Positions 25,737 to 42,298 of a DNA stretch of 64,000 nucleotides are shown in pieces. Each line of letters begins with the position of its first letter. The first letter of the stretch is position 1. A program made the translations under genes and the position numbers. Origin of the DNA: Trichocoleus desertorum NBK24. GTDB taxonomy: Bacteria > Cyanobacteriota > Cyanobacteriia > FACHB-46. Below the pieces are notes generated by a model. It was not told the origin of the DNA and did not search any database. It saw only the letters and a program-made list of their open reading frames with translations. The stretch is taken from contig NZ_CP116619.1 in the NCBI RefSeq assembly GCF_030409055.1, positions 1,025,628 through 1,089,627 of the forward strand, written 5' to 3'.

Positions 25737-26945
25737 ATGGATACTAAAGCCTTCAAACGGTCACTCAACAGTTCTGAGAACTATCATCGCAAGGGGTTTG
25801 GGCATGAGGCCGAAGTTGCCACCCTCTTAGAGTCAGAATATCAGAGCGGTTTGATTCAGCAAATCCGAGACAACGACTATACGCTACAGCGGGGTGACGT
25901 AAAGATTCGGCTGGCAGAGGCATTTGGCTTTTGTTGGGGAGTGGAGCGAGCGGTGGCAATGGCTTACGAAACCCGCCAGCACTTCCCCACCGAGCGGATT
26001 TGGATTACGAATGAAATTATCCATAACCCTTCGGTCAACCAACGTCTGCGGGAAATGCAGGTGGAGTTTATTGAGGTCAACCAGGGGCAAAAAGACTTTT
26101 CTGGGGTAGCGCAAGGCGATGTGGTGATTCTGCCTGCGTTTGGGGCCAGTGTGCAGGAAATGCAATTGCTGAATGAGCGAAGCTGCACCATTGTAGACAC
26201 GACTTGTCCTTGGGTGTCAAAGGTGTGGAACACGGTGGAGAAGCACAAGAAAGGCACTTACACCTCGATTATTCATGGCAAATACAACCATGAGGAAACG
26301 ATCGCGACGAGTTCGTTTGCCGGAATTTACTTGGTCGTGCTGAATCTGGCTGAGGCTGAGTATGTTTGCAATTACATTTTGAACGGGGGCGATCGCGAGG
26401 AGTTTTTAGCCAAGTTCCGCAAAGCTTGTTCAGAAGGCTTTGATCCAGATAAGGATTTGGAGCGGATTGGGATTGCTAACCAAACCACGATGCTCAAGGG
26501 CGAAACTGAGCAGATTGGCAAAATGTTTGAGCGTACAATGCTGAAGAAGTATGGCCCTGCGGAATTGAATCAACATTTCCTCAGCTTCAATACCATCTGC
26601 GATGCCACGCAAGAGCGCCAAGATGCCATGTTTAAGCTGGTGGATGAGCAGGTAGACCTGATGATGGTCATCGGTGGTTATAACTCATCGAATACCACTC
26701 ACTTACAAGAAATTGCGGTAGAGCGGGGCATTCCCTCTTATCACATTGATTGTGTAGAGCGGATTCTGTCGCGCGATCGCATTGAGCACAAGCCGTTAAA
26801 TTGTGAGATTGAGGTGGCTGAGAACTGGTTACCGGATGGGCCTTTGGTGATTGGGGTGACTTCGGGGGCTTCTACGCCGGATAAGGTGGTGGAGGATGTA
26901 ATTGAGCGGATTTTTGATTTGAAGGCATCTGTTGCGGTTGGTTAA
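25737..26945 (+). CDS. ispH: 4-Hydroxy-3-methylbut-2-enyl diphosphate reductase
   Basis: A 402-residue IspH (LytB), the last enzyme of the MEP isoprenoid pathway, which reduces HMBPP to IPP and DMAPP. The three Fe-S cysteines are Cys66 ([10 protein letters not shown]), Cys157 ([10 protein letters not shown]) and Cys288 ([11 protein letters not shown]). The length and the extended N-terminus with the long central insert ([23 protein letters not shown]) are of the cyanobacterial/plant type, longer than the ~310-residue bacterial enzymes. In cyanobacteria the reductant is ferredoxin. A dispersed hairpin repeat follows 18 bases after the stop. Confidence 0.97.
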
Positions 26946-26962
26946 TTATTACAAAACCAAGA

Positions 26963-27026
26963 CTTGAGGGCACCTGCCCTCAAACTCCCGCTGAGGGACG
27001 GCTGCGTCCCCCAGACCCCCTCCAGA
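26963..27026 (+). repeat. Dispersed double-hairpin repeat, copy A (short form)
   Basis: This holds the 64-bp core shared with copies at 39731-39885 and 42152-42297. It contains two palindromes: TTGAGGGCA-cc-TGCCCTCAA and GGGACG-gctg-CGTCCC. The core is identical, base for base, to the reverse complement of the copy B core. The longer flanks of B and C are absent here. Confidence 0.9.
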
Positions 27027-27070
27027 GGTAACTTTGGGGTCTTTCATGAAAGATTTTTGCCTACTTTTGT

Positions 27071-27173
27071 TTTCTAATTTCTAACTCCTGACTTCTAACT
27101 CCTCCCTTTTCATCCCTCACCCTTCATCCCTGATCCTTTTTTCTTTACTCCTCACTCCTCACCCCTCTCTTCC
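27071..27173. repeat. Polypyrimidine tract of heptamer-like repeats
   Basis: About 100 bases read as runs of TAACTCCTG, ACTTCTA, CTCACTCCT and TTCATCCCT. It overlaps the end of the bgtA-like gene: the last codons (REG, stop) are read from it. It resembles the short tandemly repeated sequences described in cyanobacteria. Confidence 0.6.
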
Positions 27174-27917
27174 CATTCGACTCAAGAAGGCTCGCAGGCG
27201 ATCGCTCTGTGGCTGAGTGAGGACTTCGCGGGCAGGGCCAGTTTCTTCGATTTGGCCTTGGTGGAGGAAGAGAACACGGTGGGCGACTTCGCGGGCAAAT
27301 TGCATTTCGTGGGTGACGATGATCATGGTCATCCCGTCTTCAGCGAGTTGTTGCATGACTTGCAGGACTTCGCCGACGAGTTCGGGGTCGAGGGCACTGG
27401 TGGGTTCATCGAAGAGGATGATTCTGGGGTTCATGCAGAGGCTGCGGGCGATCGCGACTCGCTGTTTTTGGCCGCCGGAGAGTTGGTCGGGGTAGGCGGT
27501 GGCTTTGTGAGCTAAGCCGACTTTTGCTAAGTAGGTCTGGGCGAGTTCTATGCTTTCGGCGCGGGATTTGCCGAGGGCTTTTTGGGGGGCGAGGGTGAGG
27601 TTTTCGAGGACGCTGAGGTGGGGAAACAGGTTGAATTGTTGAAAGACCATGCCAACTTGCGATCGCAGGTGGCGTAATTGGTTCATTTTCAGTCGGGGTG
27701 CTGATAGATCCATGCCGTTGACAAGTAAGCGTCCGCTGTTGATGGTTTCGAGGCGGTTGAAGCAGCGGAGCATAGTGCTTTTGCCACATCCGGAGGGGCC
27801 AATGACAGCGACGACTTCTCCCGGATGGACGGCACCGCTGACTCCCTGTAGAACTCTCAAGTCACCAAAGCTTTTTTCTACCTGCTCAAACAAGATTGCG
27901 GGAGTGCTGCTATCCAT
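27159..27917 (-). CDS. bgtA: Polar amino-acid ABC transporter ATPase, BgtA-like
   Basis: A 252-residue ABC ATPase of the GlnQ/HisP class. Walker A GPSGCGKST (40-48), the signature LSGGQKQRVAIA, Walker B IILFDEP and the switch His in IIVTHEM are all present. It is divergent from the fused binding-protein/permease gene at 28078, 160 bp away. This matches the cyanobacterial Bgt system for basic amino acids and glutamine, in which BgtA is the ATPase. Substrate specificity is inferred from this pairing. The final residues are encoded in a polypyrimidine repeat tract, so the C-terminus may be locus-specific. Confidence 0.88.
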   Translation of the reverse strand: MDSSTPAILFEQVEKSFGDLRVLQGVSGAVHPGEVVAVIGPSGCGKSTMLRCFNRLETINSGRLLVNGMDLSAPRLKMNQLRHLRSQVGMVFQQFNLFPHLSVLENLTLAPQKALGKSRAESIELAQTYLAKVGLAHKATAYPDQLSGGQKQRVAIARSLCMNPRIILFDEPTSALDPELVGEVLQVMQQLAEDGMTMIIVTHEMQFAREVAHRVLFLHQGQIEETGPAREVLTQPQSDRLRAFLSRMGREG

Positions 27918-28077
27918 AGGGCCAGAAGAAGGAACGGATCATTTAATAATGCTGATTCTAGCGACACTCTGCGGTTCAGCTTGTAAGATTGACGCAATCT
28001 CTGGATTGGCTCAGCCTTAGCGATCGCCATCATCCTGTGTTTCACCTGCGGCGAAGGGTAGCGGAAGTTCTAAACAT
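27918..28077. promoter_or_regulatory. Divergent promoter region of the bgtA-bgtB pair
   Basis: The 160 bp between the two divergent starts must carry both promoters. I looked for an NtcA-type GTA-N8-TAC site and did not find a clean one. No -10/-35 pair is called. Confidence 0.4.
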
Positions 28078-29604
28078 ATGCCGAATTTTTTAAGGTCACG
28101 TTGGCTGCAACGCTTTGTGTTGGGTTGCAGTTGTTTGCTGCTGATTCTGCTGGGCCACTTGGTTTCCGTAGCTCAGGCTCAGCAAGTTCTCAAAGTTGGA
28201 ACTGAACCTGCTTTTCCGCCGTTTGAGTTTCAAGCACCGGGGGGTGGGCTGCAAGGGTTTGATATTGATTTGATGCAGGCGATCGCCCAAGCGGAAGGGT
28301 TGCAGGTGGAGTTCCAAAGTTTGCCGTTTGATGGCTTAATTCCGGCTTTGCAAGCCAGAACCGTTGATGCGGCAATTAGTTCGATGACGATTACGGCAGA
28401 GCGGCAGCAAACGGTGGATTTCTCGCGACCTTATTTCAAGGCTGGATTGGCGATCGCGGTTCGGGCCAACAATACCAGCACAACTGATTTAGCCAGTTTG
28501 CAGAATCAGACCATCGGGGTCCAGATTGGCACTACAGGCGCAGAAACCGCCCGCAAAATTCTTGGTGCCACTATTCGCACGTTTGATTCGGCTCCCTTAG
28601 CATTGCAAGCCCTACTCAACGGCAATGTCAGTGCGGTGATCAATGATGCACCTGTAACGTTGTATGCAATCAAAGCCAACAACCTCACCGGGATTAAGGT
28701 CACAAGCCAACTGCTGACGGAGGAGTTTTATGGCATTGCCACGCCCAAGAATTCACCAAACTTAGCCAAGATTAATGCTGGCTTGACCCGCATCCTCAGC
28801 AATGGCACCTATGACCAGATCTACCGTAAATGGTTTAACGCGCAGGCTCCTTCACTCGGTACGGCTACGGTTCCTGGTTCAACTTCTCAAGCTGAAACCG
28901 CTCCCTCAGCTACTTCCGGTGCGGTCATTACGCGAGCCTTACCCATCCTGCTACAAGGTGCTTTGATTACGCTGCAATTAACTGCGCTTTCCGTCTTGTT
29001 GGGATTAATCGGTGGCACGTTGATGGGGTTAGCTCGGCTCTCTGCTTCTCGGCCTTTGCGTTGGTTCGCCAGAATCTACATTGACTTTTTTCGAGGCACA
29101 CCGCTACTGGTGCAGATCTTGATGATCTACTTTGGCATCCCAGCCTTAGTGCAAGGGCTAGGTTTCACCTTTACATTCGATCGCCTGGGTGCAGCCGTGT
29201 TGGCTCTCAGTCTCAACAGCACAGCTTATCTGGCTGAAATTGTGCGAGCGGGGATTCAGTCAGTCGAGATGGGCCAAGTAGAAGCAGCGCAATCTCTGGG
29301 TTTAGGGCCAGGACAAGCGCTGCGCTATGTGGTTTTCCCGCAGGCGTTTCGGCGCATGTTGCCACCTTTGGGCAATGAGTTCATCACCCTGCTGAAAGAT
29401 ACGAGTTTGGTTTCTGTAATTGGGTTTGAGGAACTCCTCCGCCGAGGGCAGTTGATTGTGGCTGACAATTACCGCGCCTTTGAAATTTACGCTGCTGTAG
29501 CCCTAGTCTACTTAGTGCTAAATCTACTTTCTTCTCAAGCCTTTAGCTTCCTAGAAACTCGGATGAACCCCTCCCGACGATCGCGCCAACCTAACTCTGA
29601 TTAA
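28078..29604 (+). CDS. bgtB: Fused periplasmic binding protein-permease, BgtB-like
   Basis: A 508-residue fusion. A signal segment (hydrophobic, about 15-33) leads to a type 3 solute-binding domain (about 37-258; KVGTEPAFPPFEF, GFDIDLMQAIA, SSMTITAERQ). After a Pro/Ser/Thr linker comes a HisM/GlnP-type permease (about 280-495) with several membrane helices, the FFRGTPLLVQ motif and an EAA loop (EAAQSLGLGPGQALRYV). Fusing the receptor to the permease is characteristic of cyanobacterial BgtB, which carries glutamine and basic amino acids. It works with the divergent ATPase BgtA. Confidence 0.9.
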   Translation: MPNFLRSRWLQRFVLGCSCLLLILLGHLVSVAQAQQVLKVGTEPAFPPFEFQAPGGGLQGFDIDLMQAIAQAEGLQVEFQSLPFDGLIPALQARTVDAAISSMTITAERQQTVDFSRPYFKAGLAIAVRANNTSTTDLASLQNQTIGVQIGTTGAETARKILGATIRTFDSAPLALQALLNGNVSAVINDAPVTLYAIKANNLTGIKVTSQLLTEEFYGIATPKNSPNLAKINAGLTRILSNGTYDQIYRKWFNAQAPSLGTATVPGSTSQAETAPSATSGAVITRALPILLQGALITLQLTALSVLLGLIGGTLMGLARLSASRPLRWFARIYIDFFRGTPLLVQILMIYFGIPALVQGLGFTFTFDRLGAAVLALSLNSTAYLAEIVRAGIQSVEMGQVEAAQSLGLGPGQALRYVVFPQAFRRMLPPLGNEFITLLKDTSLVSVIGFEELLRRGQLIVADNYRAFEIYAAVALVYLVLNLLSSQAFSFLETRMNPSRRSRQPNSD

Positions 29605-29615
29605 CTCCTATCGGT

Positions 29616-30533
29616 TTAGCTACGTCTAGCATCAGTCCGTCTCCCATCGAGCACTGCCCCAGATGACCCATCGACTACTGCTTCCTTAAACTGCTGCTGA
29701 TCGTAAAAATAAACGGTACGAATCGGATAAGGAATGGAAACGCCAGCGCGATCGCAAGCTTCCTTTAAGGCAATCATCACATTGGTACGGGTGCGCCGAA
29801 CGACAGCCATAGTCGGAGCTGTCCAATAGCGCACCATGAGATCAATAGAGCTTTCACCAAAACCCACAATATCGACTTCTGCCGCTGGTTTAGTCAAAAC
29901 TCCATCAACCTGGTTCACCGTCTCCAGAAAAGATTGGATGACTTGGGGTAGAGGCGTGTTGTAATCAACACCAATGGCTAAATCAGTGCGGCGATGGGGC
30001 ATTGCCGTTAAGACTTGCACGGGACTCGTGAACACAATGGAGTTGGGAATGACCACTCGTTCGCCTTGATAGGTGCGAATTTGAGTGGAGCGAATCGTGA
30101 TCTCTTCCACCGTGCCTTCAAAGTCACTCACAATGATCTGGTCGTGGAGGCGAAACGGCTCATTTAATAGCAACAAAACACCCGCCAAGAAATTTTTGAA
30201 GATGTCTTGAAAGGCAAAACCGATCGCCACCGAGCCTAGCCCCAACAAGCCAATGATGTCACCCACACCTAAATCGGGAAATGCCATCACACTAGCGATC
30301 ACTACTCCAGTAACCCAAGTGGCGACATAACTCATCTGAATCAGCAGCGATCGCAGAGATTGGCTCCGCACCATGCGGCCTGCTGTGGCAGACGTAATAT
30401 TTTGCACCACATTGGCTACATAACGAGTCAATAGCAGCACAATCAGAGCCAGGACAAACCCTGGAAATGCCTCCACAGCCTGACCAATTAGATTCAACAA
30501 ACTAGAGCGAACTTCTTGAACCAGCGCAGTCAT
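29616..30533 (-). CDS. MscS family mechanosensitive channel
   Basis: The frame opens at a TTG at 30539, but I prefer the ATG two codons later (305 residues). Three membrane helices lie in the first ~125 residues. They end in the pore helix with the MscS signature: GLGSVAIGFAFQDIFKNFLAGVLLLLNEPF. The soluble beta domain follows (VEEITIRSTQIRTYQGERVVIPNS), then an alpha/beta domain. It should release solutes on hypo-osmotic shock. It is convergent with the bgtB-like gene, with 11 bases between the stops. Confidence 0.9.
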   Translation of the reverse strand: MTALVQEVRSSLLNLIGQAVEAFPGFVLALIVLLLTRYVANVVQNITSATAGRMVRSQSLRSLLIQMSYVATWVTGVVIASVMAFPDLGVGDIIGLLGLGSVAIGFAFQDIFKNFLAGVLLLLNEPFRLHDQIIVSDFEGTVEEITIRSTQIRTYQGERVVIPNSIVFTSPVQVLTAMPHRRTDLAIGVDYNTPLPQVIQSFLETVNQVDGVLTKPAAEVDIVGFGESSIDLMVRYWTAPTMAVVRRTRTNVMIALKEACDRAGVSIPYPIRTVYFYDQQQFKEAVVDGSSGAVLDGRRTDARRS

Positions 30534-30837
30534 AAGCAAGCTTACTCATGTTTCTTCGTTAGCACCATCCCACTCTCAGCCATTCCTGCACAACTATGCA
30601 AAGACAGAGCAGAGACAGAAAATTTTGGCTGCAATGATCAACTCTGAATGAGTGGGCCAGCCACTTAGCGCCATCAGAGCGATCGCACTCACAAGCATTA
30701 CGCATCAGCTTGGGTACGGCAACGGACAGACAACTCTTTAGCAAAGCCATCAATATAATTGGCAGGAGCAGCATGAGCCTCAAGGCTATGACGACTGAGT
30801 TGGAGTCATAACGTTTAATCAGAGTGCTGCAAACTTG

Positions 30838-31251
30838 ATGGTGCCTTTGATTTTATCTGTAGACGATTATGAAGACGATCGCCTGCTAAGCGCCTTTTTT
30901 CTAGAAAGCCTTGGTTACCAAAGCATTACGGCTCCTGATGGCGAAACGGCTTTAGCCCTAACCCAACGCTACCAACCGAACTTAATTTTACTAGACCTCT
31001 GTTTGCCAGGAATGAACGGTCTAGAGGTGGTTCGTTGTCTTAAACAAAATCCACAAACGGCAACGATTCCTGTCATTGCTGTCACAGCGATGATAGTGCA
31101 GGGCAGTACAATTTTTAACGCTTCAGCACTGTGCAGCCGTGAACAAGCCTTACTCGCAGGCTGCGATGATTACGTGACTAAGCCCTATACCCTTGAGGAA
31201 ATAGAGAGCATTCTTTGTCGTCATCTGAGCCAATCCCTAAGTTTCTCTTGA
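30838..31251 (+). CDS. Single-domain response regulator
   Basis: The frame opens at TTG (30835), immediately followed by ATG, which I use (137 residues). It is a receiver domain only, with no output domain: acidic pocket VDDYEDD (8-14), phospho-acceptor Asp53 (LLDLCLPGMNG), Thr83 (AVTAM) and Lys115 (DYVTKPYT). There is an insertion of about ten residues (STIFNASALCS) after beta-4 compared with CheY-like receivers. It probably passes phosphate or contacts a partner kinase or effector. No histidine kinase lies in the window, so its partner is elsewhere. The NACHT gene begins 130 bp downstream on the same strand. Confidence 0.9.
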   Translation: MVPLILSVDDYEDDRLLSAFFLESLGYQSITAPDGETALALTQRYQPNLILLDLCLPGMNGLEVVRCLKQNPQTATIPVIAVTAMIVQGSTIFNASALCSREQALLAGCDDYVTKPYTLEEIESILCRHLSQSLSFS

Positions 31252-31381
31252 GCACGCCTGAGATTTGAGAGTGCCTAAGAGTTGAGACCTGAAAGTTGAG
31301 ACCTGAAAGTTGAGAGTGGAAATCTGCCAGCATTTTCACTTAATCTGTTGACATCGTGCCAACTCTTTCTCTCATACTCCT

Positions 31382-33574
31382 ATGATTGGACTGGAAAAAA
31401 TCGCCCTCCAAGCCGCCAGCATGGGTTTGGCTAGCATTTTCAGCCGTGTAGTTTGGGAGGGGGGCGGCAAGCTGCTCGGCTGGATGGGCAAAAAAAGCTT
31501 AGACGAAAAAACAAAACAGGCGATCGCGGCAGCTTCAACCCAGTACGTCCAAAACTATGGGGAGCGCCACGGCATTCTGAAAGTCCTGGGGATGCGTGAG
31601 CCTGCACCTTTAGAGTCGATTTACACAACCGTTCAATTGCTCGACAAGTGGGATCTGCGGCGGTTTGAGTCGATTGAAACCTTAGAAAAAGCCTATCGCC
31701 AGACTCGAACTCGCAGCTTTCAACCCAAAGAGTCGAGCCGTCAGGATGGTCTGAGAGTCGCTAATGAAAAGCAATATTTGATGGTGCTGGGTGGCCCTGG
31801 AGCAGGGAAATCGACCTTTCTCCGCAAGCTGGGTTTAGAAGTACTCAAAGGAACCCAAGGCGGCTATGAACATGAATGTATCCCGGTTCTGATTGAGCTA
31901 AAGAGCTTTACTAGCAGCAAAATTAATTTGGAGAAAGCGATCGCCCAAGAGTTCAAAATTTGTGGTTTTCCTCATCCGGAAGAAGCAACGACTCAACTAT
32001 TAGAACAAGGCAAGCTGCTTATTTTACTGGATGGCCTAGATGAAGTTCCTGGCAAAAATCTAAATGAAGCGATTTGTCAAATTCAAAACTTTGTCGATCA
32101 GTACGACCAAAACCGTTTTATTGCCTCTTGTCGCCTCGCCGCCTATCGCCATAACTTCAGACGATTTACCGATGTGGCAATGGCTGACTTCGACCCTGCC
32201 CAAATCAAGCAGTTCATTCACAACTGGTTTCGCTCCAACGAGGATCAGCAAGCTGGCACCGGGCAGAAGTGTTGGGAGTTACTCTTAAAGCCAGAAAATG
32301 CAGCGGCCAAAGAATTAGCCCACTCGCCTTTATTACTAACACTCCTTTGTTTAGTCTACGATCGCTCCCAAAATTTCCCTAACAATCGTAGCGTCCTTTA
32401 TCGCAAAGCCCTCCGAGTTTTGCTAGAAGAATGGGCTTCGGAGAAACGCATTTTACGGGATGAAATCTACCAAGGTCTAAGCACCGAATTAGAAGAAATT
32501 TTATTATCTGAAATTGCCTATAGTGCGTTCAAGTCAGATCGGCTTTTCTTCTCTCAAGCTGAGATTGTTAGCCAAATTAAAACATTTTTAACTGACAACT
32601 TAAATGCGCCCAAACACTTGAATGGAGAAGCGGTATTAAATGCGATCGCCATTCAGCAAGGCATTTTAGTCGAACGGGCCGAAGATGTGTTTTCGTTCTC
32701 CCATTTGACGCTGCAAGAATATCTCACCGCCCAGTACATTGCCGACAATCATCAAGTGGTTCGCTTAGTCGCCGATCACCTCACAGACCCGCGTTGGCAA
32801 GAAGTATTTCTACTCGTGGCGGGGCTAATGCGGCATGGTGCTGATGAACTACTGATCCGCATGGCCCGCAAAACTCGTCGTTACATCACCACTCCTAAGC
32901 TGCAAGCTTTGTTGCAGTGGGCGCACCAAATTACTGAAGGCCCAGGAACCACTGTGAAGCCTGTAGTGAAAAGAGCCTCGGCGTTGTTTCTCGCTTTAGC
33001 TCGCGATCGCGCCTTAGAACTAGTCCGGGTGCTTCATCCCAATACCGCGCGCGTTTTGGATCTCGTACGGACGCTAGACCTAGTTTGTGCCCCCGCTCCG
33101 GTGCAAGCGATCGATTTAGCTCGCGCAATGGAACTGGCCCGCAGCCTCGATTTTGACTGTGCTCCCGCTCGCGCCCGTGCCCGAACTCGCAGCCTCAACC
33201 GGATTCCTGCTCGGACTCTAGCTCGCGCCGTCACTAACTCTCTGGCCCAAGAGTTCAGCAAGAGCCAACTATTTAACAGCGTCAACTTCCACCCCTTGAT
33301 TGCCCGTCTAGATGCTCTAAAAACCAAAGCCCCTGATACCAGCCAACCCTACGAAGTGCAGCAAGCCTTTCGCGATCGCGTTTCTCAAGTCTGGCTCCAC
33401 GCCCTCAAACTGGATGCCGCTCTGGTAGATTTATCCGCCGCAGAGCTACAAGCGCTGGAAAATTACCTTTACGCCAATTGTCTGCTAGTCCGTTGTAAGC
33501 AATCAGCCGTTAGAGTTTCAGCCAAAACCTGGGAAGAAATTGAAACGCAAATGCTTTTTGTAGCAGGCTGCTAA
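31382..33574 (+). CDS. NACHT-domain STAND NTPase
   Basis: A 730-residue protein. A helical N-terminal domain (1-125) contains a conserved-looking hydrophobic start and the motif TQYVQNYGERHG. The NACHT NTPase follows, with P-loop GGPGAGKS (137-144), Walker B LLILLDGLDE (212-221), the arginine sensor (IASCRLAAY) and the winged-helix/superhelical region ending FSHLTLQEYLTAQY. From about 540 to 620 there is an unusual Ala/Leu/Arg/Asp-rich series of short helices (DRALELVR, LDLVRTLDLV, LARAMELARSLD, ARARARTRS), then a conserved helical end. Bacterial NACHT proteins include NLR-like antiphage sensors. No nuclease or other effector domain is visible, so a defence role is inference. Confidence 0.9.
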   Translation: MIGLEKIALQAASMGLASIFSRVVWEGGGKLLGWMGKKSLDEKTKQAIAAASTQYVQNYGERHGILKVLGMREPAPLESIYTTVQLLDKWDLRRFESIETLEKAYRQTRTRSFQPKESSRQDGLRVANEKQYLMVLGGPGAGKSTFLRKLGLEVLKGTQGGYEHECIPVLIELKSFTSSKINLEKAIAQEFKICGFPHPEEATTQLLEQGKLLILLDGLDEVPGKNLNEAICQIQNFVDQYDQNRFIASCRLAAYRHNFRRFTDVAMADFDPAQIKQFIHNWFRSNEDQQAGTGQKCWELLLKPENAAAKELAHSPLLLTLLCLVYDRSQNFPNNRSVLYRKALRVLLEEWASEKRILRDEIYQGLSTELEEILLSEIAYSAFKSDRLFFSQAEIVSQIKTFLTDNLNAPKHLNGEAVLNAIAIQQGILVERAEDVFSFSHLTLQEYLTAQYIADNHQVVRLVADHLTDPRWQEVFLLVAGLMRHGADELLIRMARKTRRYITTPKLQALLQWAHQITEGPGTTVKPVVKRASALFLALARDRALELVRVLHPNTARVLDLVRTLDLVCAPAPVQAIDLARAMELARSLDFDCAPARARARTRSLNRIPARTLARAVTNSLAQEFSKSQLFNSVNFHPLIARLDALKTKAPDTSQPYEVQQAFRDRVSQVWLHALKLDAALVDLSAAELQALENYLYANCLLVRCKQSAVRVSAKTWEEIETQMLFVAGC

Positions 33575-33889
33575 AACAGTTTCAGTATTGCCACAACTGG
33601 ATGTGAAAACTTCAGCAAAAATATGAAAGGTTTTCCTATTAAAAAGCTGAGCCTGAATTGAAGAGGTTGCTGAGGGTAGAAATCTGGTAGTTTTTGCTAC
33701 AAATTTGCTGATTTCATCAGAGTTTTATCAAAATTTGCTGATTTTTATTTGCCACTTCACGGAACAATTCGCTAGCATTTGTATCGTTATGTATGGGAAT
33801 GTTAAGAGCGTCTGCTACCCGCGATCGCCCAGAGCATTGCTGAGAGCATCGCCGTCATTCCTAACTCTCTCTTACGTGGAACGCATGTT
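33575..33889. other. Intergenic, 315 bp, with a 14-bp direct repeat
   Basis: AAATTTGCTGATTT occurs at 33701-33714 and again at 33731-33744, exactly 30 bp apart (about three helical turns), upstream of the Mo-nitrogenase C-terminal-like gene. This spacing would suit an operator pair. A 162-codon frame at 33705-34193 overlaps the downstream gene and is rejected. Confidence 0.45.
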
Positions 33890-34231
33890 ATGGCGTCAAC
33901 AAATCAAGTTGGTTTTGCCCTGTTCGATGAAACAGTGGCTCCCCCTAAAGGCCAAGCTCCGCTTAAGGTGCAATTTGCTTTCCTCAAGCCTTTACGGAAG
34001 TGGCTGGACGGAATTGAAGTCCAAACCCCTCAGTTGGCTCATTTTCTCGCCAAAACCATTCCAGCTCAGTGCCCTTTTGAAAGAGACATTACTCTCTTTG
34101 GCCGCAAAATCGCTCACATTCCACCCCTGTGCAAACTCAATCCTGTGTACGAGGAATTGGTGGGCCTCCGGTTTCGCGCCCTTTGCTATTTAGTAGATCA
34201 GTGTGGTGAGGACATTCAAGCTTATTACTAG
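33890..34231 (+). CDS. Mo-dependent nitrogenase C-terminal-like domain protein
   Basis: A 113-residue soluble protein matching the cyanobacterial family annotated as Mo-dependent nitrogenase C-terminal domain. The conserved core is present: LRKWLDGIEVQTPQLAHFL, IPAQCPFERDITLFGR, IPPLCKLNPVYEELVGLRFRAL and a final CGEDI. Two Cys residues in CPFERD and PLCKLNP are conserved in the family. Despite the name, such proteins occur in cyanobacteria without a nitrogenase, and no nif genes are nearby. The function is unknown. A plus-strand frame starting further upstream is out of frame and not used. Confidence 0.85.
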   Translation: MASTNQVGFALFDETVAPPKGQAPLKVQFAFLKPLRKWLDGIEVQTPQLAHFLAKTIPAQCPFERDITLFGRKIAHIPPLCKLNPVYEELVGLRFRALCYLVDQCGEDIQAYY

Positions 34232-34267
34232 CATCTATTCCTAAATAGGGCTTTGATCAGCTTTCTT

Positions 34268-35449
34268 CTAGGGAGTTTTAACTGATTTCAACGCATCTGC
34301 TTGTTTTTGCTCTGTGATCACAGCTTGCGGCGGCACCTGAGTCCCATCCCGCAGCGTCACTCCCACTACAATGGCCCCTGTGCCAATCGTGACGTTGTTA
34401 CCTACCTGAGAGCGAAACAAAACTGCATCGTCCGCGATCGCCAGGTTGTCGCCGACTTCTAAGGGGCCGTGAAAGACAACGTTGTCGTCTGTATTTAAGT
34501 TTCTGCCAATTCGGATGCTGGTGCCTTTGAGGGCATGAAAGGTAACTCGATCCGCGATCGCAGCATTTTCGCCAATGATGATGGGTGAACCTTCATCCGC
34601 TCGAATTGAGGTACGCTGACCCACCACACTATTGCTGCCCAGGCGCACGTCACCCACAATCCGCACAAACTGGTCAACTTGGACGTTCTGGCCTAAGGTA
34701 GGCCGTACGGGTTTTGGATTCCAGGAGGTTCGTGGGGCAGGGCTAATGCCAGTGACGGCATCGAATCCCTGCGATCGATAGAGTTCACCGTAGTGCTCTG
34801 CAAACTCTTCGTTCACTTCTAAGACTTCTCTTTGAAACTCGGCATTGTCCGTTGTCTTTAAAGGCAAGGCATCTGCCTGGGCTTGCGTGGTAATGACTGC
34901 GCCAATGGGAACGAGACGATTTTTGCCAATTCGTACGTTAGCCAGTTTGGCTCCATGAAGCACAAAGGCTCCATCTTCTAGGATGGTGTTCTGCAATTGC
35001 GCGCGAAAGCCAATGAAGGTGAAGTTGCCAATTTTGGAATTCTCAATACTGGCTTGGTGAGCAATGCTGACTTGGTTTCCGGTGCTGCTCGATCTGCGAC
35101 CACAGGCGCTAGTGGGGGCAGGAGTAAGGCGGCGGGCAATCAAAAGAATATTGTCTTGAAGATTTGTTTCATTGCCAATGCAGATGTGAGTGTCAGGATC
35201 AGCACGTAAAACCGTGTTGCTAGCCACAAACACCCGCTTACCTACCGCTACATTGCCAAATAGCTCCACTAAAGGGCTAATAAAGCTGGAGTTGACTACG
35301 GCTGGGATGGGTCGAAATAAGCTGGTTAAGGAGCTTGGAGTCGCAGCCAAGGTGACAGTCGCGCCCAGCAAAATGCCCAAAATGATGCCAACCCTCAGAA
35401 ACCGCTGTGGTAGGTTTTTGAGGCGTTGATACACAGAAACAAGTCTCAC
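34268..35449 (-). CDS. Exported tandem gamma-carbonic-anhydrase-like (hexapeptide) protein
   Basis: A 393-residue protein starting at GTG with a signal or anchor helix (about 18-36). Two left-handed beta-helix domains of the gamma-carbonic-anhydrase type lie in tandem (about 58-190 and 250-385), joined by a helical linker. Domain 1 keeps LRADPD and one ligand His (His131 in IAHQ), but its other two ligand positions are Ile and Glu136. Domain 2 keeps IRADEG, His305 (VTFHAL) and His327 (VFHG), while the remaining position is Asp322. Neither domain alone has three His ligands. It may be a periplasmic carbonic anhydrase with shared sites, or a non-catalytic CcmM-like scaffold. Confidence 0.8.
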   Translation of the reverse strand: MRLVSVYQRLKNLPQRFLRVGIILGILLGATVTLAATPSSLTSLFRPIPAVVNSSFISPLVELFGNVAVGKRVFVASNTVLRADPDTHICIGNETNLQDNILLIARRLTPAPTSACGRRSSSTGNQVSIAHQASIENSKIGNFTFIGFRAQLQNTILEDGAFVLHGAKLANVRIGKNRLVPIGAVITTQAQADALPLKTTDNAEFQREVLEVNEEFAEHYGELYRSQGFDAVTGISPAPRTSWNPKPVRPTLGQNVQVDQFVRIVGDVRLGSNSVVGQRTSIRADEGSPIIIGENAAIADRVTFHALKGTSIRIGRNLNTDDNVVFHGPLEVGDNLAIADDAVLFRSQVGNNVTIGTGAIVVGVTLRDGTQVPPQAVITEQKQADALKSVKTP

Positions 35450-35523
35450 AATGCAACCAACAAAAACTACATAACAACTATTTCTAGCGAATCGCTCAGC
35501 TCTCAGGTAGATTTTCTGCTGAA

Positions 35524-36594
35524 TCAGCTAGCCATAGCCACCAGTTGGGATTCAATTTTGGCTGCGTCAATATCTCGCCCAATAAACACTAAGCGAGTTT
35601 CCTGAAGTTCGTTCAGTTGCCACGGGCGATCGTAAAAACGCTCGAAGCGTTTTCCCACACCTTGCAATACCAATCGCATTGATTTGTTGGGCACTGCCAC
35701 AAACCCCTTAATCCGATAGATTTCTTGCTCTTGCACCAGAGTTTCTAACTGGCGTTGTAGCTGGTCTGGGTCAAAGCTTTGGTTCAGGACAACATGAGTC
35801 GAGGTGATATCGTCATCGTGATCATGCTCCTCCTCAGTGTCATGATGGCTGGGGCGCTGCTCCAGGTTGTCTTCCACGGCTGCCTGGAAACCCAAGAGTA
35901 GATCTGGGCTGAGTTGACCGCGATCGCTCGCTACAATCTTGACTGCTCTTGGCAGTTCTCGCTGAATCAGTTCCAAGGCTTGGGTTTGAGCGTCGGCATC
36001 CACTAAATCAGTTTTATTCAGCACCACCAAATCGGCACAGGCAAGTTGATCTTCAAACAACTCTTGCAAAGGCGTTTCGTGGTCTAGATTTGGGTCGGCT
36101 TGCCGTTGGGCTTCTACCGCTTGCAGGTCACTCGCTAGCGTTCCTTGAGTCACTGCCTCACAATCCACCACCGTCACCACCCCATCCACTGTGGCGGCAT
36201 TGCGGATTTCGGGCCAGCGAAAGGCTTTAATCAGCGGCTTGGGCAAAGCCAAACCAGATGTTTCAATCAAAATACAGTCGATCTCGTCTCGACGTTTGAT
36301 CAGCTCTAGCATCGTCGGCAAAAACTCTTCCTGTACCGTGCAGCAGAGACAGCCGTTAGTCAGCTCCACAATGTTGGAAGCGTTGGCCGCACTCACTACT
36401 TGCTCCTCACCGGACTCATCTGGACACACTTGGCAAGAGCGCAGCAAGTCACCATCAATCCCTAACTCGCCAAACTCATTCACTAAGACCGCAATCCGCC
36501 GACCTTGATTGTTTTGCAACACATGTCGAATTAGGGTCGTTTTACCACTGCCGAGGAAGCCAGTAATGACGGTAACAGGAATTTTTGCAGCCAT
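35524..36594 (-). CDS. CobW/COG0523 GTPase (putative metal chaperone)
   Basis: A 356-residue G3E GTPase. P-loop GFLGSGKTT (12-20), the metal-binding CLCC motif (81-84), the switch region and NKTD are present. The CobW C-terminal domain (QEIYRIKGFVAV to FIGRD) completes it. An additional Cys pair (CQVC, 53-56) and a His/Asp/Glu-rich loop (HHDTEEEHDHDDD) between the G and C-terminal domains suggest zinc or other divalent metal handling. COG0523 proteins deliver metals such as zinc, cobalt or iron to target enzymes; the metal is not determined here. The gene follows, on the same strand, 233 bases after the heme oxygenase gene. Confidence 0.9.
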   Translation of the reverse strand: MAAKIPVTVITGFLGSGKTTLIRHVLQNNQGRRIAVLVNEFGELGIDGDLLRSCQVCPDESGEEQVVSAANASNIVELTNGCLCCTVQEEFLPTMLELIKRRDEIDCILIETSGLALPKPLIKAFRWPEIRNAATVDGVVTVVDCEAVTQGTLASDLQAVEAQRQADPNLDHETPLQELFEDQLACADLVVLNKTDLVDADAQTQALELIQRELPRAVKIVASDRGQLSPDLLLGFQAAVEDNLEQRPSHHDTEEEHDHDDDITSTHVVLNQSFDPDQLQRQLETLVQEQEIYRIKGFVAVPNKSMRLVLQGVGKRFERFYDRPWQLNELQETRLVFIGRDIDAAKIESQLVAMAS

Positions 36595-36827
36595 GCCTAA
36601 ACTCAGAAAGGATTTGAAAGGGTTTTAAAGAGGGTGTAGAAGGGGCGATCGCTTGCCCAAATATTGCTTGCCCAGGTTATCACTCTCAGCAGGATGCCTT
36701 CAAGCTAATAATCCTGAAAGCTCAGTGACTGCTTTACAACCACCAAGCCTCCAGGATTACAAGTCTTGCTCGCAACGGAGACTAAATTTTAGATAGAGGA
36801 TAGTTTCTCTCAATGAACCTAGCTAGC

Positions 36828-37571
36828 TTATTCAGCAGTCGCCATTTCGGTGCTGCCACGACCGCGACGACGAGTCAGCGTGTTGAACAGCATCACCCCG
36901 ATCGCCTTGATCAGGTTACCTTCTAGTTCATTGAACAGCTTCATGTTCATGCCGAAAGCCGCGTTCGCTTCCTCAACAATCCGATCCGCAGTCGCCTCAT
37001 CTACAGGCAACTCATTCATTGCTTGACGGTAAGTATTTTTGAATGCCTTCTCGTCAGCAATATCCTCAAATTCGTAGAACGCGGTACCTTCGCTTTCTAG
37101 ATTCATTGCCCGCTGAGCAATTCCCTTCAGGATTTGACCACCAGACAGGTCACCCAAATAACGAGTGTAAGAGTGCGCCGCCAATAACTCAGGCTCTGAA
37201 GCTGCAATCTCATGAATCCGCTGCACATAAGCTTGAGCAGCAGGTGAAGGAGCTACTTCTTCACGCCAATTGGGGCCGTAGTAGTAGTAGAGATCCTTCT
37301 CTAAGCTTTCCTGCCGATTTAGCTGGGGAAAGTAGAACTTCGAAACAATCGGATGGTTCTGGAGCCGAGCCATTTCCTCTTCGATCGCCGAGTAAACGAA
37401 GTAGAGATTGGCGACCAGCTTCCGGTAAGAGTTTTTCTCAACAACTCCCTTCAAAAAGCACTTTACGAAGCCGACGTTCTCAGCCATAGTGTGGGCTTTT
37501 TTAGTGCCCTCACGAAGTTTGGTTGCTAAATTACCGTTGCCCTCTAAATTGGTAGCGACAGTACTGGTCAT
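36828..37571 (-). CDS. ho1: Heme oxygenase (ferredoxin-dependent)
   Basis: A 247-residue heme oxygenase, close to the usual 240 residues of cyanobacterial HO1. The proximal heme ligand is His27 in GTKKAHTMAENVGF, and the distal helix carries GDLSGGQILKGIAQRAM. The rest (YVYSAIEEEM, SYTRYLGDL) is typical. It opens heme to biliverdin IX-alpha with electrons from ferredoxin, the first step toward phycobilin chromophores. The C-terminus has an Arg-rich extension (TRRRGRGST). The gene appears monocistronic, with 380 bp upstream of its start that includes a tandem repeat beside purE. Confidence 0.96.
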   Translation of the reverse strand: MTSTVATNLEGNGNLATKLREGTKKAHTMAENVGFVKCFLKGVVEKNSYRKLVANLYFVYSAIEEEMARLQNHPIVSKFYFPQLNRQESLEKDLYYYYGPNWREEVAPSPAAQAYVQRIHEIAASEPELLAAHSYTRYLGDLSGGQILKGIAQRAMNLESEGTAFYEFEDIADEKAFKNTYRQAMNELPVDEATADRIVEEANAAFGMNMKLFNELEGNLIKAIGVMLFNTLTRRRGRGSTEMATAE

Positions 37572-37845
37572 ACTAAATATCCTGCTAAATTTCCCAACAC
37601 TAAAGTTGTTTGCTGGAATGGCGATCCTTACGGAAACCTAAAAACCACCTAAATCGTTACAGTAGACCGATTTGATGAGAGTTTGTGTTAAATATTCTGA
37701 AGCTCTGTTACGTCAGAACTATCAAAAGCCTCAGTGAGCCAAAATCTATCCGCATTCAATCCATTACATCACAAGCCTCGCTGCTAGTTATTAAAAAATG
37801 TAAGCAAACTGATCTATTCGGATACATTTTTTCACAAGAAAAAAG
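37572..37845. other. Upstream region of the heme oxygenase gene
   Basis: This AT-rich stretch separates ho1 from the purE-linked tandem repeat. The ho1 promoter should be here. No clear motif was identified. Confidence 0.4.
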
Positions 37846-37941
37846 ATGAGAGATGAGAGGGAAAGAGGAATGAGGGATGAGAGGGAAAGAGGAATGAGGG
37901 ATGAGAGGGAAAGAGGAATGAGGGATGAGAGGGAAAGAGGA
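37846..37941. repeat. Four tandem copies of a 24-bp repeat
   Basis: The unit starts ATGAGGGATGAGAGGGAAAG (24 bp in all). Copies lie at 37846, 37870, 37894 and 37918; the last three are identical and the first has one mismatch. The array ends 12 bases before the purE stop codon and is purine-rich on the plus strand. Confidence 0.95.
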
Positions 37942-37953
37942 AGAAGATGAAGA

Positions 37954-38472
37954 TTACATTTCTTTGAGATATTGTTGATAGCCGACTTGGTCTAACTTGG
38001 TTTGTTTCTCCATCACCATATCCTTGAGGGATTGGCGATATTGCTGAACTTGCTCTTGCAAAGTGGGGTTGGAGGTAGCGAGGATTTGTACTGCTAACAG
38101 TCCAGCATTTTTGGCATTGCCGATCGCAACGGTCGCCACAGGAATTCCGGCGGGCATTTGCACAATAGAGTAGAGCGAGTCTACGCCTTGGAGATTTCGG
38201 GTAGCGACAGGTACGCCAACTACAGGAAGTGGAGTCAGGGAGGCGACCATTCCTGGTAGGTGAGCGGCTCCCCCTGCTCCAGCGATGATGACTTTGATGC
38301 CGCGTGTGTGGGCTTGCTGGGCATATTCCACCATGCGTTCTGGGGTGCGGTGGGCGGAGACAATGCCAACTTCGCAGGGCACACCGAATTCTTTGCAAAC
38401 GGCGATCGCGGCTTGCATGGTGGGCAAATCGGAATCACTGCCCATGATGATGCCAACTAAAGGTTGAGTCAT
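37954..38472 (-). CDS. purE: 5-(Carboxyamino)imidazole ribonucleotide mutase
   Basis: A 172-residue class I PurE of purine synthesis, converting N5-CAIR to [13 protein letters not shown] (11-19), SAHRTPERM with the catalytic His, and [10 protein letters not shown] are all present. The sequence is the usual length. The gene lies 80 bp upstream of, and divergent from, the nagA gene. Immediately after its stop lies a four-copy 24-bp tandem repeat. An overlapping minus-strand frame (37832-38398) repeats SHPSFLFP only because it reads that array. Confidence 0.97.
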
Positions 38473-38552
38473 TGGAGTTTGAGAGGTGAGAGGTAAGATT
38501 TTGGATTAAGTTAGAACTTGCGGTTTAAGCGTTGCAGCTCTCAATCCAGCAC

Positions 38553-39728
38553 ATGGATATTATCAAGGCGCGAGTGCCTGGTTACTCAGGAATTCAGCAT
38601 ATTCACATCGAAGGCAGCATCATTCAGCGGGTCGAGCCAATGGGCCAATCCGTCGCTGGCGTCATCCCCATTCACGAACCCCTGCTAGATGTAAACGAAG
38701 ACTGGATTTCTCTCGGTGGGATCGATTTACAAATTAATGGGGCTTTGGGGTTAGCCTTTCCAGACCTCGCTCCAGAGCATTTAGGAAAACTGGCTGAAAT
38801 CTGTCAATTTCTGTGGCAGCAAGGCGTAGATGGTTTTCTCCCCACCCTTGTCACCACCTCCGTCGAAAATATTCAGCGATCGCTCGCCACCATCGCCCAA
38901 TTCATCGAGCAAATCCAGCCTACCCAAACCAAAGCAGCCCAAATTCTCGGCGTGCATCTAGAAGGCCCATTCCTCAACCCCGAAAAACGCGGTGCCCACC
39001 CAGCCGAGTACCTCTTGCCCCTCAGCGTCGAGCAAGTCAAGCGAGTACTTGGCAATTACGCCCATCTCGTCAAAGTCATCACCCTTGCCCCTGAACTCGA
39101 CCCCACCGAAGCCGCGATCGCCTACTTGCAATCCCTCGGCATCACCATCAGCCTAGGCCATTCCCAAGCCACCGCCGCCCAAGCCCAGCAAGCCTTCGTC
39201 CAGGGAGCCACAATGGTTACTCATGCCTTCAACGCCATGCCCAGCCTGCACCACCGCGAACCAGGACTGCTGGGAGCCGCGATCGTTGCCCCGAATGTAC
39301 AATGTGGCTTCATCGCCGACGGTCAACACGTCTCCCCAATCATGCTCGATCTCTTGCTGAGAGCCAGCCACTACGACCAAGGCTTATTCCTCGTCAGCGA
39401 CGCCCTCGCCCCCCTCGGCCTCCCCGACGGCATTTACCCCTGGGACACCCGCCAAATCGAGGTAAAGCAAAATACAGCAAGACTTCCTGACGGCACCTTA
39501 TCTGGAACAACCTTGCCGTTGTTGGTGGGGGTGCAGAATTTGGTGAAATGGGGAATTTGTGACGTAGAACAAGCGATCGCCCTAGCCACCACTGCACCCA
39601 GACACGCGATCGGTTTGTGGCATGAACCAACCGGAGATCATTGTCCCTACAAAGGCCAACCTGTTAGTAACTTACTGCGCTGGGCGATCGATCCTGAAAC
39701 TCAGACTCTGTCATGGCAGAGACTATAG
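38553..39728 (+). CDS. nagA: N-acetylglucosamine-6-phosphate deacetylase
   Basis: I use the ATG at 38553 (391 residues); the frame extends seven codons to a TTG. NagA removes acetate from GlcNAc-6-phosphate in amino-sugar and cell-wall recycling. Metal and catalytic motifs are present: HLEGPFLNPEKRGAHP, LGHSQATA, THAFNAM and the catalytic Asp in VSDALAPLG. The N-terminal beta-sandwich strand (HIEGSII) is partly shortened compared with well-known members. No nagB or nagK is in the window. A dispersed hairpin repeat follows directly. Confidence 0.92.
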   Translation: MDIIKARVPGYSGIQHIHIEGSIIQRVEPMGQSVAGVIPIHEPLLDVNEDWISLGGIDLQINGALGLAFPDLAPEHLGKLAEICQFLWQQGVDGFLPTLVTTSVENIQRSLATIAQFIEQIQPTQTKAAQILGVHLEGPFLNPEKRGAHPAEYLLPLSVEQVKRVLGNYAHLVKVITLAPELDPTEAAIAYLQSLGITISLGHSQATAAQAQQAFVQGATMVTHAFNAMPSLHHREPGLLGAAIVAPNVQCGFIADGQHVSPIMLDLLLRASHYDQGLFLVSDALAPLGLPDGIYPWDTRQIEVKQNTARLPDGTLSGTTLPLLVGVQNLVKWGICDVEQAIALATTAPRHAIGLWHEPTGDHCPYKGQPVSNLLRWAIDPETQTLSWQRL

Positions 39729-39730
39729 AT

Positions 39731-39885
39731 GACCTAACCCCCGACCCTTCCCTGCGAGGGAAGGGGAGAAAAAGAGAAAAAACTAATCTCGAAACTCCCA
39801 CAATTCAACTCGTCTGGAGGGGGTCTGGGGGACGCAGCCGTCCCTCAGCGGGAGTTTGAGGGCAGGTGCCCTCAAGGCTCGGATT
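39731..39885 (-). repeat. Dispersed double-hairpin repeat, copy B (long form, inverted)
   Basis: On the minus strand this copy matches copy C over about 150 bp and copy A over the 64-bp core (39813-39876). At its distal end lies the perfect stem CCCTTCCCT-gcg-AGGGAAGGG (39745-39765). It sits 2-157 bases after the nagA stop. Confidence 0.88.
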
Positions 39886-40009
39886 GTCAAAGATCCTCAA
39901 ACCCAACACTAGAGATGCGATCGCCTCACCAAAACTATCGCGCTAAGAACAAATCATCATAGGATTGAGAACTGTAGTCTGTTGAAACCCAGCAAATAGA
40001 ACCAAATTT

Positions 40010-40696
40010 ATGAACGTGGTGGATGATAAAACTGTAGTCCGGGAGTACTTCAACGCAACCGGATTTGACCGTTGGCGACGCATTTACGGCGATGGAGAAG
40101 TTAACAAAGTCCAACTCGACATTCGCATTGGGCATCAACAGACCATTGATCACGTCTTGGGCTGGCTCAAAGCCGACGACAACCTTTCCCAAATCACCGT
40201 ATGCGATGCAGGCTGTGGCGTCGGTAGCCTCAGCATCCCTCTTGCCGAAGCAGGCGCAAAAGTCTTCAGCAGCGACATCTCCGAAAAAATGGTTGAAGAA
40301 GCCAAAGACAGAGCTGCCTCCGAGCTAGGCCAAACCACCAACCCCACCTTCAGCGTTCAAGACCTAGAAAGTCTGAGCGGTCAGTATCACACTGTCATCT
40401 GCCTGGACGTGCTGATCCACTACCCCCAAGACAAAGCCGCTGATATGATTGCCCATCTCAGCTCTCTGGCAGACTCTCGCTTGATTCTCAGCTTTGCTCC
40501 CAAGACCCTCGCCTACAGCTTGCTGAAGAAGATCGGCGACTTCTTCCCTGGCCCTAGCAAAGCCACCCGCGCCTATTTACACCGAGAAGCAGACGTAGTG
40601 AAAATCCTAGAAGCCAACGGCTGGAAAATTGAGCGCAACGCCATGACCAAAACCCGCTTCTACTTCTCCCGCCTTCTAGAAGCCGTCAAAAAATAA
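40010..40696 (+). CDS. chlM: Mg-protoporphyrin IX methyltransferase
   Basis: A 228-residue SAM-dependent methyltransferase of the ChlM/BchM family, which methylates the propionate of Mg-protoporphyrin IX in chlorophyll synthesis. The opening VVREYFNATGFDRWRRIYGDGEVNKVQ is diagnostic. The SAM loop is DAGCGVGSL (66-74), and the C-terminal RFYFSRLLEAV is also typical. The length matches cyanobacterial ChlM. It is probably membrane-associated through the N-terminal amphipathic part. It follows a repeat-containing spacer of 281 bp, so it probably has its own promoter. Confidence 0.96.
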   Translation: MNVVDDKTVVREYFNATGFDRWRRIYGDGEVNKVQLDIRIGHQQTIDHVLGWLKADDNLSQITVCDAGCGVGSLSIPLAEAGAKVFSSDISEKMVEEAKDRAASELGQTTNPTFSVQDLESLSGQYHTVICLDVLIHYPQDKAADMIAHLSSLADSRLILSFAPKTLAYSLLKKIGDFFPGPSKATRAYLHREADVVKILEANGWKIERNAMTKTRFYFSRLLEAVKK

Positions 40697-40779
40697 GCTT
40701 CAAAATTCGATAAAGTCACAGGCAAGGGCGATCGCGACAGGCTAGAATCTCGGCTAGCGCGATCGCCTATGGCACAGTT

Positions 40780-41178: not shown

Positions 41179-41247
41179 GCCGAAGTGACCAACGCTTGCG
41201 ATACAATCTCGGCATTGCAGACTCTCCTATCGTCATGAAATATCGTC

Positions 41248-41715: not shown

Positions 41716-41761
41716 GCTAGGCTCGCTAGCATGAAGCGTAGATGTCTTTGAGAGGATGGGC

Positions 41762-42142
41762 ATGGTTCGGATCTTTTTGGCGATTGCGGCAATTTTGGCA
41801 GGTTTAGCAGTGGCGGCGGGGGCATTTGCGTCTCACGCTTTGCGAGATAAATTGAGCGATCGCGCTTTAGAGATTTTTGAGACGGCTTCGCGCTACCAGA
41901 TGTATCATGCGTTGGCTTTGTTGCTGGTGGCGGTGTTGCTAGCTCAGGTGGCAATACCCTCTACTTTGTTAAATACAGCGGGATATGCGTTTTTGGCAGG
42001 GATTGTGCTGTTTTCTGGCAGTTTGTATGCGTTGAGTTTGTCGGGGGTGAAGTGGCTGGGGGCGATTACTCCCCTTGGTGGGGTGGCGTTTTTGATTGGC
42101 TGGGGATGTGTGGCAGCGGCAGCTTGGAGTTCTAAGTTTTAA
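41762..42142 (+). CDS. DUF423 family membrane protein
   Basis: A small protein with four membrane helices, matching the DUF423 (YgdD) family: FASHALRDKL, a long helix with YHALALLLVA, and the C-terminal ITPLGGVAFLIGWG. Two nearby ATGs fit, at 41756 and 41762. I choose 41762, because GAGGA lies five bases upstream of it and overlaps the earlier ATG (126 residues). The family has no defined function. A dispersed repeat begins ten bases after the stop, between this gene and the convergent yebC. Confidence 0.85.
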   Translation: MVRIFLAIAAILAGLAVAAGAFASHALRDKLSDRALEIFETASRYQMYHALALLLVAVLLAQVAIPSTLLNTAGYAFLAGIVLFSGSLYALSLSGVKWLGAITPLGGVAFLIGWGCVAAAAWSSKF

Positions 42143-42151
42143 ATTTATGGG

Positions 42152-42297
42152 AATCCGAGCCTTGAGGGCAGGTGCCCTCAAACTCCCGCTGAGGGACGGC
42201 TGCGTCCCCAGACCCCCTCCAGACGAATTGAGCTGTGGGTGTTTCGAGATTGTCTTATCTCCCCTCGCTTCGTAGGAGAGGGGCCGGGGGAGAGGTC
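42152..42297 (+). repeat. Dispersed double-hairpin repeat, copy C (long form)
   Basis: The core is at 42161-42223. Compared with copies A and B, the central CC of the first palindrome is GG and one C is missing from the later C-run. The downstream flank, including the hairpin CCCCTC/GAGGGG (42261-42283) and CCGGGGG, matches copy B. It fills the whole spacer between convergent genes. Confidence 0.88.
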
Positions 42298-42298
42298 T

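Follow-up and report, generated by a model that had tools for sequence, protein, structure and literature searches.

The window analyzed here is a 64,000-nt stretch of the Trichocoleus desertorum NBK24 chromosome, and it holds three copies, A, B, and C, of a short intergenic repeat. Copy A is flanked by a convergent pair, ispH and an ABC ATPase gene, copy B by a nagA-like gene and chlM, and copy C by another convergent pair, a DUF423 gene and a yebC-type gene. Reading the letters directly, we found that A and the reverse complement of B are the same at 64/64 bases and that C is nearly identical to them, so the repeat that had been predicted from these three copies is real. C has GG in place of CC at the center of the first palindrome and lacks one C from the 3′ arm of hairpin 2. 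In every copy the core consists of two hairpins in tandem, again as predicted. A repeat search matched A with B over 73 nt at 96% and B with C over 67 nt at 91%, and it found a further tail common to B and C (46 nt at 91%). The third hairpin that the original prediction had included in the stretch shared by B and C is instead a separate TM-like mirror/inverted repeat. Such repeats adjoin both B and C (Table 1), and the part of the query that covers this repeat (positions ~134 to 181) matched a separate place in the congener G002 and 8 genomes outside the genus. All copies had also been expected just after a gene stop. This holds for A, which follows the ispH stop at 26945, and for C, which follows the DUF423 stop at 42142. 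Copy B is ~85 bp past the nagA-like stop (39728), from which its tail and the TM-like hairpin separate it, and it points against the nagA-like gene. When folded as DNA, the two strands of copy A gave z-scores of -3.2 and -3.4, and 0/200 shuffles were equally good; copy C gave a modest gain over shuffles (-1.8 and -2.2). The window also contains a 24-bp tandem repeat, ATGAGGGATGAGAGGGAAAGAGGA, of ~4 to 5 units at 37822-37941.

Table 1. Coordinates of the repeat copies and adjoining features in the window.
Feature	Position	Strand	Remarks
Copy A, 64-bp core, short form	26963..27026	+	tail continues GGTAAC
Copy A hairpin 1, TTGAGGGC-ACCT-GCCCTCAA	26964..26983	+	
Copy A third strand 1, CTCCC	26985..26989	+	mirror of CCCTC arm
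Copy A hairpin 2, CTGAGGGACG-GCTG-CGTCCCCCAG	26991..27014	+	
Copy A third strand 2, CCCCCT	27016..27021	+	mirror of TCCCCC
Copy A CAG, partner of hairpin 2 loop CTG	27023..27025	+	basis is covariation
Copy B core	39813..39876	-	same letters as A, inverted
Copy B hairpin 1	39856..39875	-	third strand 39850-39854
Copy B hairpin 2	39825..39848	-	third strand 39818-39823, CAG 39814-39816
Copy B long-form tail, CGAG...TTTCGAGATT	39785..39812	-	
TM-like element adjoining B	39738..39768	.	separate repeat, the predicted third hairpin
Copy C core, 63 bp	42161..42223	+	hairpin 1 loop inverted (AGGT), hairpin 2 short by one C
Copy C hairpin 1	42162..42181	+	third strand 42183-42187
Copy C hairpin 2	42189..42211	+	third strand 42213-42218, CAG 42220-42222
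Copy C long-form tail, CGAA...TTTCGAGATT	42224..42251	+	
TM-like element adjoining C, CTCCCC..GAGAGGGG-CCG-GGGGAGAG	42259..42295	+	separate repeat
ispH, upstream of copy A	25737..26945	+	
DUF423 gene, upstream of copy C	41756..42142	+	

We searched the whole 5.46-Mb chromosome for the 25-nt core at ≤3 mismatches and obtained 60 matches (29 forward, 31 reverse). Two congeners gave 69 and 72 matches, one genome of another family gave 2, and the fourth genome searched gave 0; the reversed control gave 0 in each. A chance origin of the family is excluded. The original prediction had named two things that would speak against it, a lack of further copies and a recent segmental duplication of these loci. 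The genome count disposes of the former, and the latter is excluded because the copies are spread round the genome with unrelated flanks. A broader pattern for hairpin 1 matched 42 places in the window's genome (control 0), a few of which are copies whose hairpin 2 is inverted, altered, or missing. The same pattern occurred in 25 of the 386 genomes drawn from the phylum, some with two units in tandem. Genomes G324, G319, G214, and G327 and the f29 genomes share the two-unit design but have different loops, with tails that match them; the loop/tail pairs in other lineages are TTG/CAA, TTGC/GCAA, and GCGC/GCGC. The exact tail of hairpin 2, CCCCCAGACCCCCTCCARA, was present in 1/386 phylum genomes, the window's own, with the congeners lying outside that draw. 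At one locus (L206 in G123), an inverted copy of hairpin 1 takes the place of hairpin 2 and the tail is unchanged. G275 was the only genome with many matches to the backward control pattern (7 in the forward and 7 in the reverse orientation), and it perhaps carries a triplex repeat of opposite polarity.

An alignment of 60 copies gave the consensus, which we describe on the C-rich strand. The 5′ flank is AAATCCGARCC or GAACCRARCC. Hairpin 1, TTGRGGGC-4 nt-GCCCYCAA, is followed by A, the third strand CYCCC, and G, and hairpin 2, CTGAGGGACG-GYTG-CGTCCCCCAG, is followed by A, the third strand CCCCCT, C, and CAR. After CAR comes a long tail (CGAA..TTTCGA) or a short one (AGGGTTT, GGTAAC). In each unit, the 3′ pyrimidine (Y) arm of the hairpin is followed by a 3-nt linker and then by the arm's own mirror image, giving the mirror repeats CCCYC-AAA-CYCCC and TCCCCC-AGA-CCCCCT. 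To tell a mirror from a direct repeat, we used the arms that are not all C. For hairpin 1 the relation was a mirror in 28/31, direct in 0, and neither in 3. For hairpin 2 it was a mirror in 18/22, 12 of which also read as direct, so that 6 were mirror only, 1 was direct only, 12 were ambiguous, and 3 were neither. We reject a direct repeat on these counts (28 versus 0 and 6 versus 1). Among the parsed copies, 3/31 such arms in hairpin 1 and 4/22 in hairpin 2 lack the mirror. Six variable or deleted copies break it, L001, L023, L124, L038, and L096 by length and L188 after a flip. We also considered antiparallel Watson-Crick pairing of the third strand; by our reasoning this needs variant-specific registers and fails for hairpin 1.

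We then asked which sites vary together. Parsing succeeded for 104 of 120 core matches (97 from the genus and 7 from other genomes) and failed for 16. Leaving out L053, L092, and L104, where hairpin 1 is lost or altered at its start, reduced the 97 to a correlation set of 94 copies from three congeners (55 from the window's genome). Mirror partners were almost perfectly correlated, with r2 values of 1.000 (split 12/82), 1.000 (split 6/87), and 0.951. The variable base in the loop of hairpin 2 and that in the tail gave an r2 of 0.918 (split 43/49), with 2 exceptions. Watson-Crick partners gave 0.816 and 0.713, the purine (R) arm and the third strand gave 0.862 and 0.713, and loop 1 and the states of hairpin 1 gave 0.45 to 0.48. 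The remaining site pairs did not exceed ~0.15, and adjacent nonpartners gave 0.01 to 0.05. In the 55 copies of the window's genome alone, r2 was 1.000, 1.000, and 0.880 for mirror partners, 0.02 for adjacent nonpartners, and 1.000 for loop and tail, whose two states occur in 25 and 30 copies without exception. GTTG occurs with CAG in 3/97 copies and pairs as T.G on the C-rich strand only. Among the three copies that were left out, L104 is a T.G exception and the other two have the loop-tail match; by eye, 8 of ten unparsed copies of the genus also have it, and the other 2 (L166 and L188) have an inverted hairpin 2. The mirror-repeat third strand and the loop-tail pairing bear out the prediction of a structured repeat, mostly 3′ of genes, whose conservation goes beyond mere pairing.

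The same sites change together in place. We compared 76 copies in 32 orthologous groups; we chose to leave out L273, which has diverged, L276 and L288, in which hairpin 2 is inverted, and L286, which lacks the element; L275 was unparsed, and one group was reduced to a single copy. Both sides of the loop-tail pair had changed in 7 groups and one side in 1. Both sides of a mirror pair had changed in 6 group-and-site cases (3+1+2), and one side alone had changed in 0. The R arm had changed alone in 4. L004/L079, L005/L142, and L006/L080 are examples for the loop-tail pair, and L029/L134 is an example for the mirror only.

To determine which strand would carry the fold, we examined where the two arms of a hairpin disagree. 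The third strand equaled Y in 7/8 such cases. At site 2 of hairpin 2 it equaled Y in 86/86; most copies have A in R and C in Y at this site, so that it is mostly A.C on the C-rich strand and G.T on the G-rich strand. Stem mismatches lean weakly to the G-rich strand (13 versus 5, which is not decisive), and the three GTTG/CAG copies lean to the C-rich strand. That the third strand follows Y, and not Y's Watson-Crick partner R, points to a purine motif on the G-rich strand. A pyrimidine triplex on the C-rich strand would tie the third strand to R and is thus disfavored. Purine-motif triplexes suit DNA better than RNA. The data fit an intrastrand DNA triplex of the purine-motif type (class I) formed by the G-rich strand and fit poorly with a G-quadruplex, an i-motif, or block gene conversion; the class I polarity is assigned by the definition given in the accessible text of Holder et al. 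(2015, PMC4666352). On the G-rich strand, another purine run lies 5′ of the purine arm of each hairpin, with TTT or TCT as the linker. In the fold that we propose, this run would turn back into the major groove, where it would form G.G-C and A.A-T triplets with the purine arm. Past the triplex of the second unit, YTG on the continuing strand would pair with CAR in the hairpin loop. This would make an H-type pseudoknot in which the third strand of the triplex is the strand that crosses. The putative triplexes are short, 5 to 6 triplets, and the loop-tail pairing is 3 bp in the genus. Such a fold would presumably form in the cell as DNA.

We placed 61 copies by simple ORF calls: 21 were tandem sense, 20 convergent, 14 tandem antisense, 4 divergent, and 2 undetermined. 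Convergent sites thus outnumber divergent ones (20 versus 4; P = 0.0015), and the copies between tandem genes have no significant bias in orientation (21 versus 14; P = 0.31). The stop of a same-strand upstream gene is mostly within ~60 nt of the element. Folded DNA in these places could be a barrier at gene ends, one that slows or stops polymerases and separates neighboring transcription units. Perhaps the element is retained as such a roadblock. According to the accessible text of PMC4666352, PIT elements block DNA polymerase in vitro and have no promoter, terminator, or in vivo effects.

Three other explanations bear on the fold. One is that it is an RNA fold: the C-rich strand would be the 3′ end of the upstream gene's mRNA, two stable hairpins and a loop-tail pseudoknot would protect the transcript or bring about its termination, with the mirror run lying in the groove as a pyrimidine strand. 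The left neighbor is on the sense strand in 42/61 copies, its stop is usually near the element, and the loop-tail exceptions are T.G wobbles on the C-rich strand. However, the R arm is what an RNA fold would contact, and the third strand follows the Y arm. The A.C at hairpin 2 site 2 on the C-rich strand of most copies (G.T on the other strand), the lack of a U-tract in the conserved element, and the tandem-gene orientations given above also argue against an RNA, and a covariance-model search of window positions 26800 to 42500 against Rfam (E ≤ 1) gave 0 matches. We consider an RNA fold unlikely. It is much less likely still that relatedness or gene conversion among the copies, and not selection on the fold, yields the correlations. 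The copies do share ancestry, and loop variants differ at orthologous sites as if they had been exchanged. However, sites 4 to 10 nt apart are uncorrelated, and structural partners up to ~25 nt apart are correlated. The loop-tail states C/G and T/A alternate across intervening sites: five different backgrounds, defined by the sites that precede the pair or lie between its members, each have both states. Thus, a single block transfer cannot produce the pair; templated copying, we reason, also cannot make mirror repeats. Finally, the four G/C runs might form a G-quadruplex on the G-rich strand or an i-motif on the C-rich strand, and all four tracts do have a run of three in 82/94 copies. The other 12/94 lose both runs of hairpin 2, in matched fashion, so the four G-runs are not conserved as a set. 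A four-stranded core needs its hairpins to match, but the state of hairpin 1 hardly correlates with that of hairpin 2 (r2 of 0.01 to 0.04). This explanation seems to us highly improbable.

The original prediction had described the GG/CC swap in copy C as if the palindrome's center had flipped. The swap is real and general: the congener orthologue of C (L061) has CC, and loop inversions recur throughout the family. The loop of hairpin 1 comes in eight 4-nt types, which make up four reverse-complement pairs, and 20,000 random loop sets, a crude null, never gave more than four reverse-complement-paired members. Orthologous loop inversions of hairpin 1 are seen in L015/L126, in copy C (L001/L061), and in L059/L287. 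Hairpin 2 is inverted less often (L166, L188, L276, L288, and two copies in other genomes, L117 and L121), and the copies concerned have lost the loop-tail match. In the small hairpin-loop inversions of chloroplasts, the loop of a stable palindrome inverts and the stem stays. By analogy, recurrent inversion of this kind explains the flip in copy C. Here the loop likewise inverts with its stem kept; unlike the chloroplast case, this happens in a dispersed bacterial repeat, frequently in the free loop and more rarely in the putative pseudoknot loop.

The original prediction had proposed a mobile unit of the REP or MITE type, and in the genus we saw nothing to indicate that it still moves. We searched with the flanks of 12 copies (L101 gave one flank only, and the L025 flanks had no match in G001) and fetched 20 orthologous sites of 11 copies. 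The element is present in 19/20; the unoccupied site (L286) has a different TM-like repeat instead. The L040 site in G002, outside these 20, was matched as well. The copies in the window's genome have no detectable target duplications, since their flanks share words no more than swapped flanks do, and no terminal inverted repeats (TIRs) were detected in the genus. The MITE connection is supported in part, through another family, f30. In three of its genomes (G324, G319, and G214) the module lies within 171- to 207-bp elements that have 18-bp TIRs, and most of the loci read also show perfect 10-bp target duplications. In G214, two of the three MITE copies read (L200 and L201) have a palindromic insert of 37 alignment columns in the 5′ arm of hairpin 2. 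The repeat probably spread long ago by MITE-type transposition, as is still visible in f30.

Two alternatives rest on movement. An active REP unit would be moved by the genome's REP-associated tyrosine transposase (RAYT), and by family model there is one RAYT gene (L091; NF047646, E = 4e-54). However, its 3.4-kb locus has no copy of the family. The gene (L091:1280-2130) is flanked there by GTAG-GGTGCGTTGCAACGCACC-type palindromes of a different repeat family. The consensus of the 60-copy alignment has no unpaired GTAG/CGTC tag at a hairpin end, and the fetched orthologous sites have no insertion polymorphism attributable to transposition. We therefore reject REP/RAYT membership, and of all the explanations this one has the slimmest chance. 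The likeness to REP, REPIN, and BIME sequences, as described in the accessible text of PMC3733652, is that of short, palindromic, multicopy intergenic repeats, and REP sequences are known in cyanobacteria; the GTAG- and CGTC-tagged palindromes described there differ from the present family, which has head-to-tail hairpin pairs in each unit, third strands, no unpaired tag, and no association with RAYT. The window's genome also has three IS200-type transposase genes, each of 150 codons and with equal scores (L087 to L089). The alternative that the element is selfish, its fold kept solely for the need of an unknown transposase with no gain to the host, we also judge improbable, to the same degree as an RNA fold. 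The f30 MITEs favor it, as does the occurrence of the module in different sequence vehicles. Against it, the copies of the genus are fixed (19/20 fetched sites) and yet co-change in place, without target duplications. In addition, no transposase was found beside the module or the TIRs examined, and the single TIRs in f30 genomes had no partner within their loci, where the ORFs listed included no evident transposase.

The closest known kind is that of the PIT/TM intrastrand triplex repeats in the wider sense, and not TM(ECO) itself. Those described by Holder et al. (2015, PMC4666352), where earlier PIT work is cited, are likewise dispersed intergenic G/C-rich hairpins with a mirror third strand and a purine motif on the G-rich strand. 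According to the accessible text, such repeats are abundant in some cyanobacteria and TM elements form triplexes in vitro. Our family has the relation that defines a triplex motif, with purine arm, pyrimidine arm, and mirror third strand on one strand. It does not match the published TM(ECO) sequence pattern: it is class I (third strand 5′ of the purine arm), in contrast to the class II TM(ECO), and it has 5 to 6 triplets compared to 9. Because of this opposite polarity and the shorter stems, we do not file it as TM(ECO). It also differs from the PIT/TM repeats of that text in its two tandem units, its putative loop-tail pseudoknot, and the evidence from covariation. The pattern limits given there (stems of 6 to 15 nt, no mismatch at 6) would pass over many of the units reported here.

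From the sequences, we read the family as a dispersed, noncoding intergenic repeat that may consist of two tandem intrastrand-triplex hairpins, the second locked as a pseudoknot, with an old MITE-type spread and a role as a gene-end barrier; we find the case for this reading as a whole about evenly poised. We advance more tentatively the idea that selection acts at dozens of gene ends on a DNA triplex pseudoknot in the chromosome, which would amount to comparative-genomic proof of functional intrastrand DNA triplexes in bacteria. Earlier work on intrastrand triplex repeats, as far as the accessible text of PMC4666352 tells, found them by pattern and saw little effect in vivo. In that text and in the mostly nonsubscription literature that our search covered, we found no report of third-strand or loop-tail covariation in such repeats. 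The covariation of third strand and of loop and tail, in about 100 copies and at orthologous sites, turns the question of triplexes in vivo into one for precise single- and double-mutant tests. If true, our reading would provide rare evolutionary evidence that living cells keep three-stranded structures.
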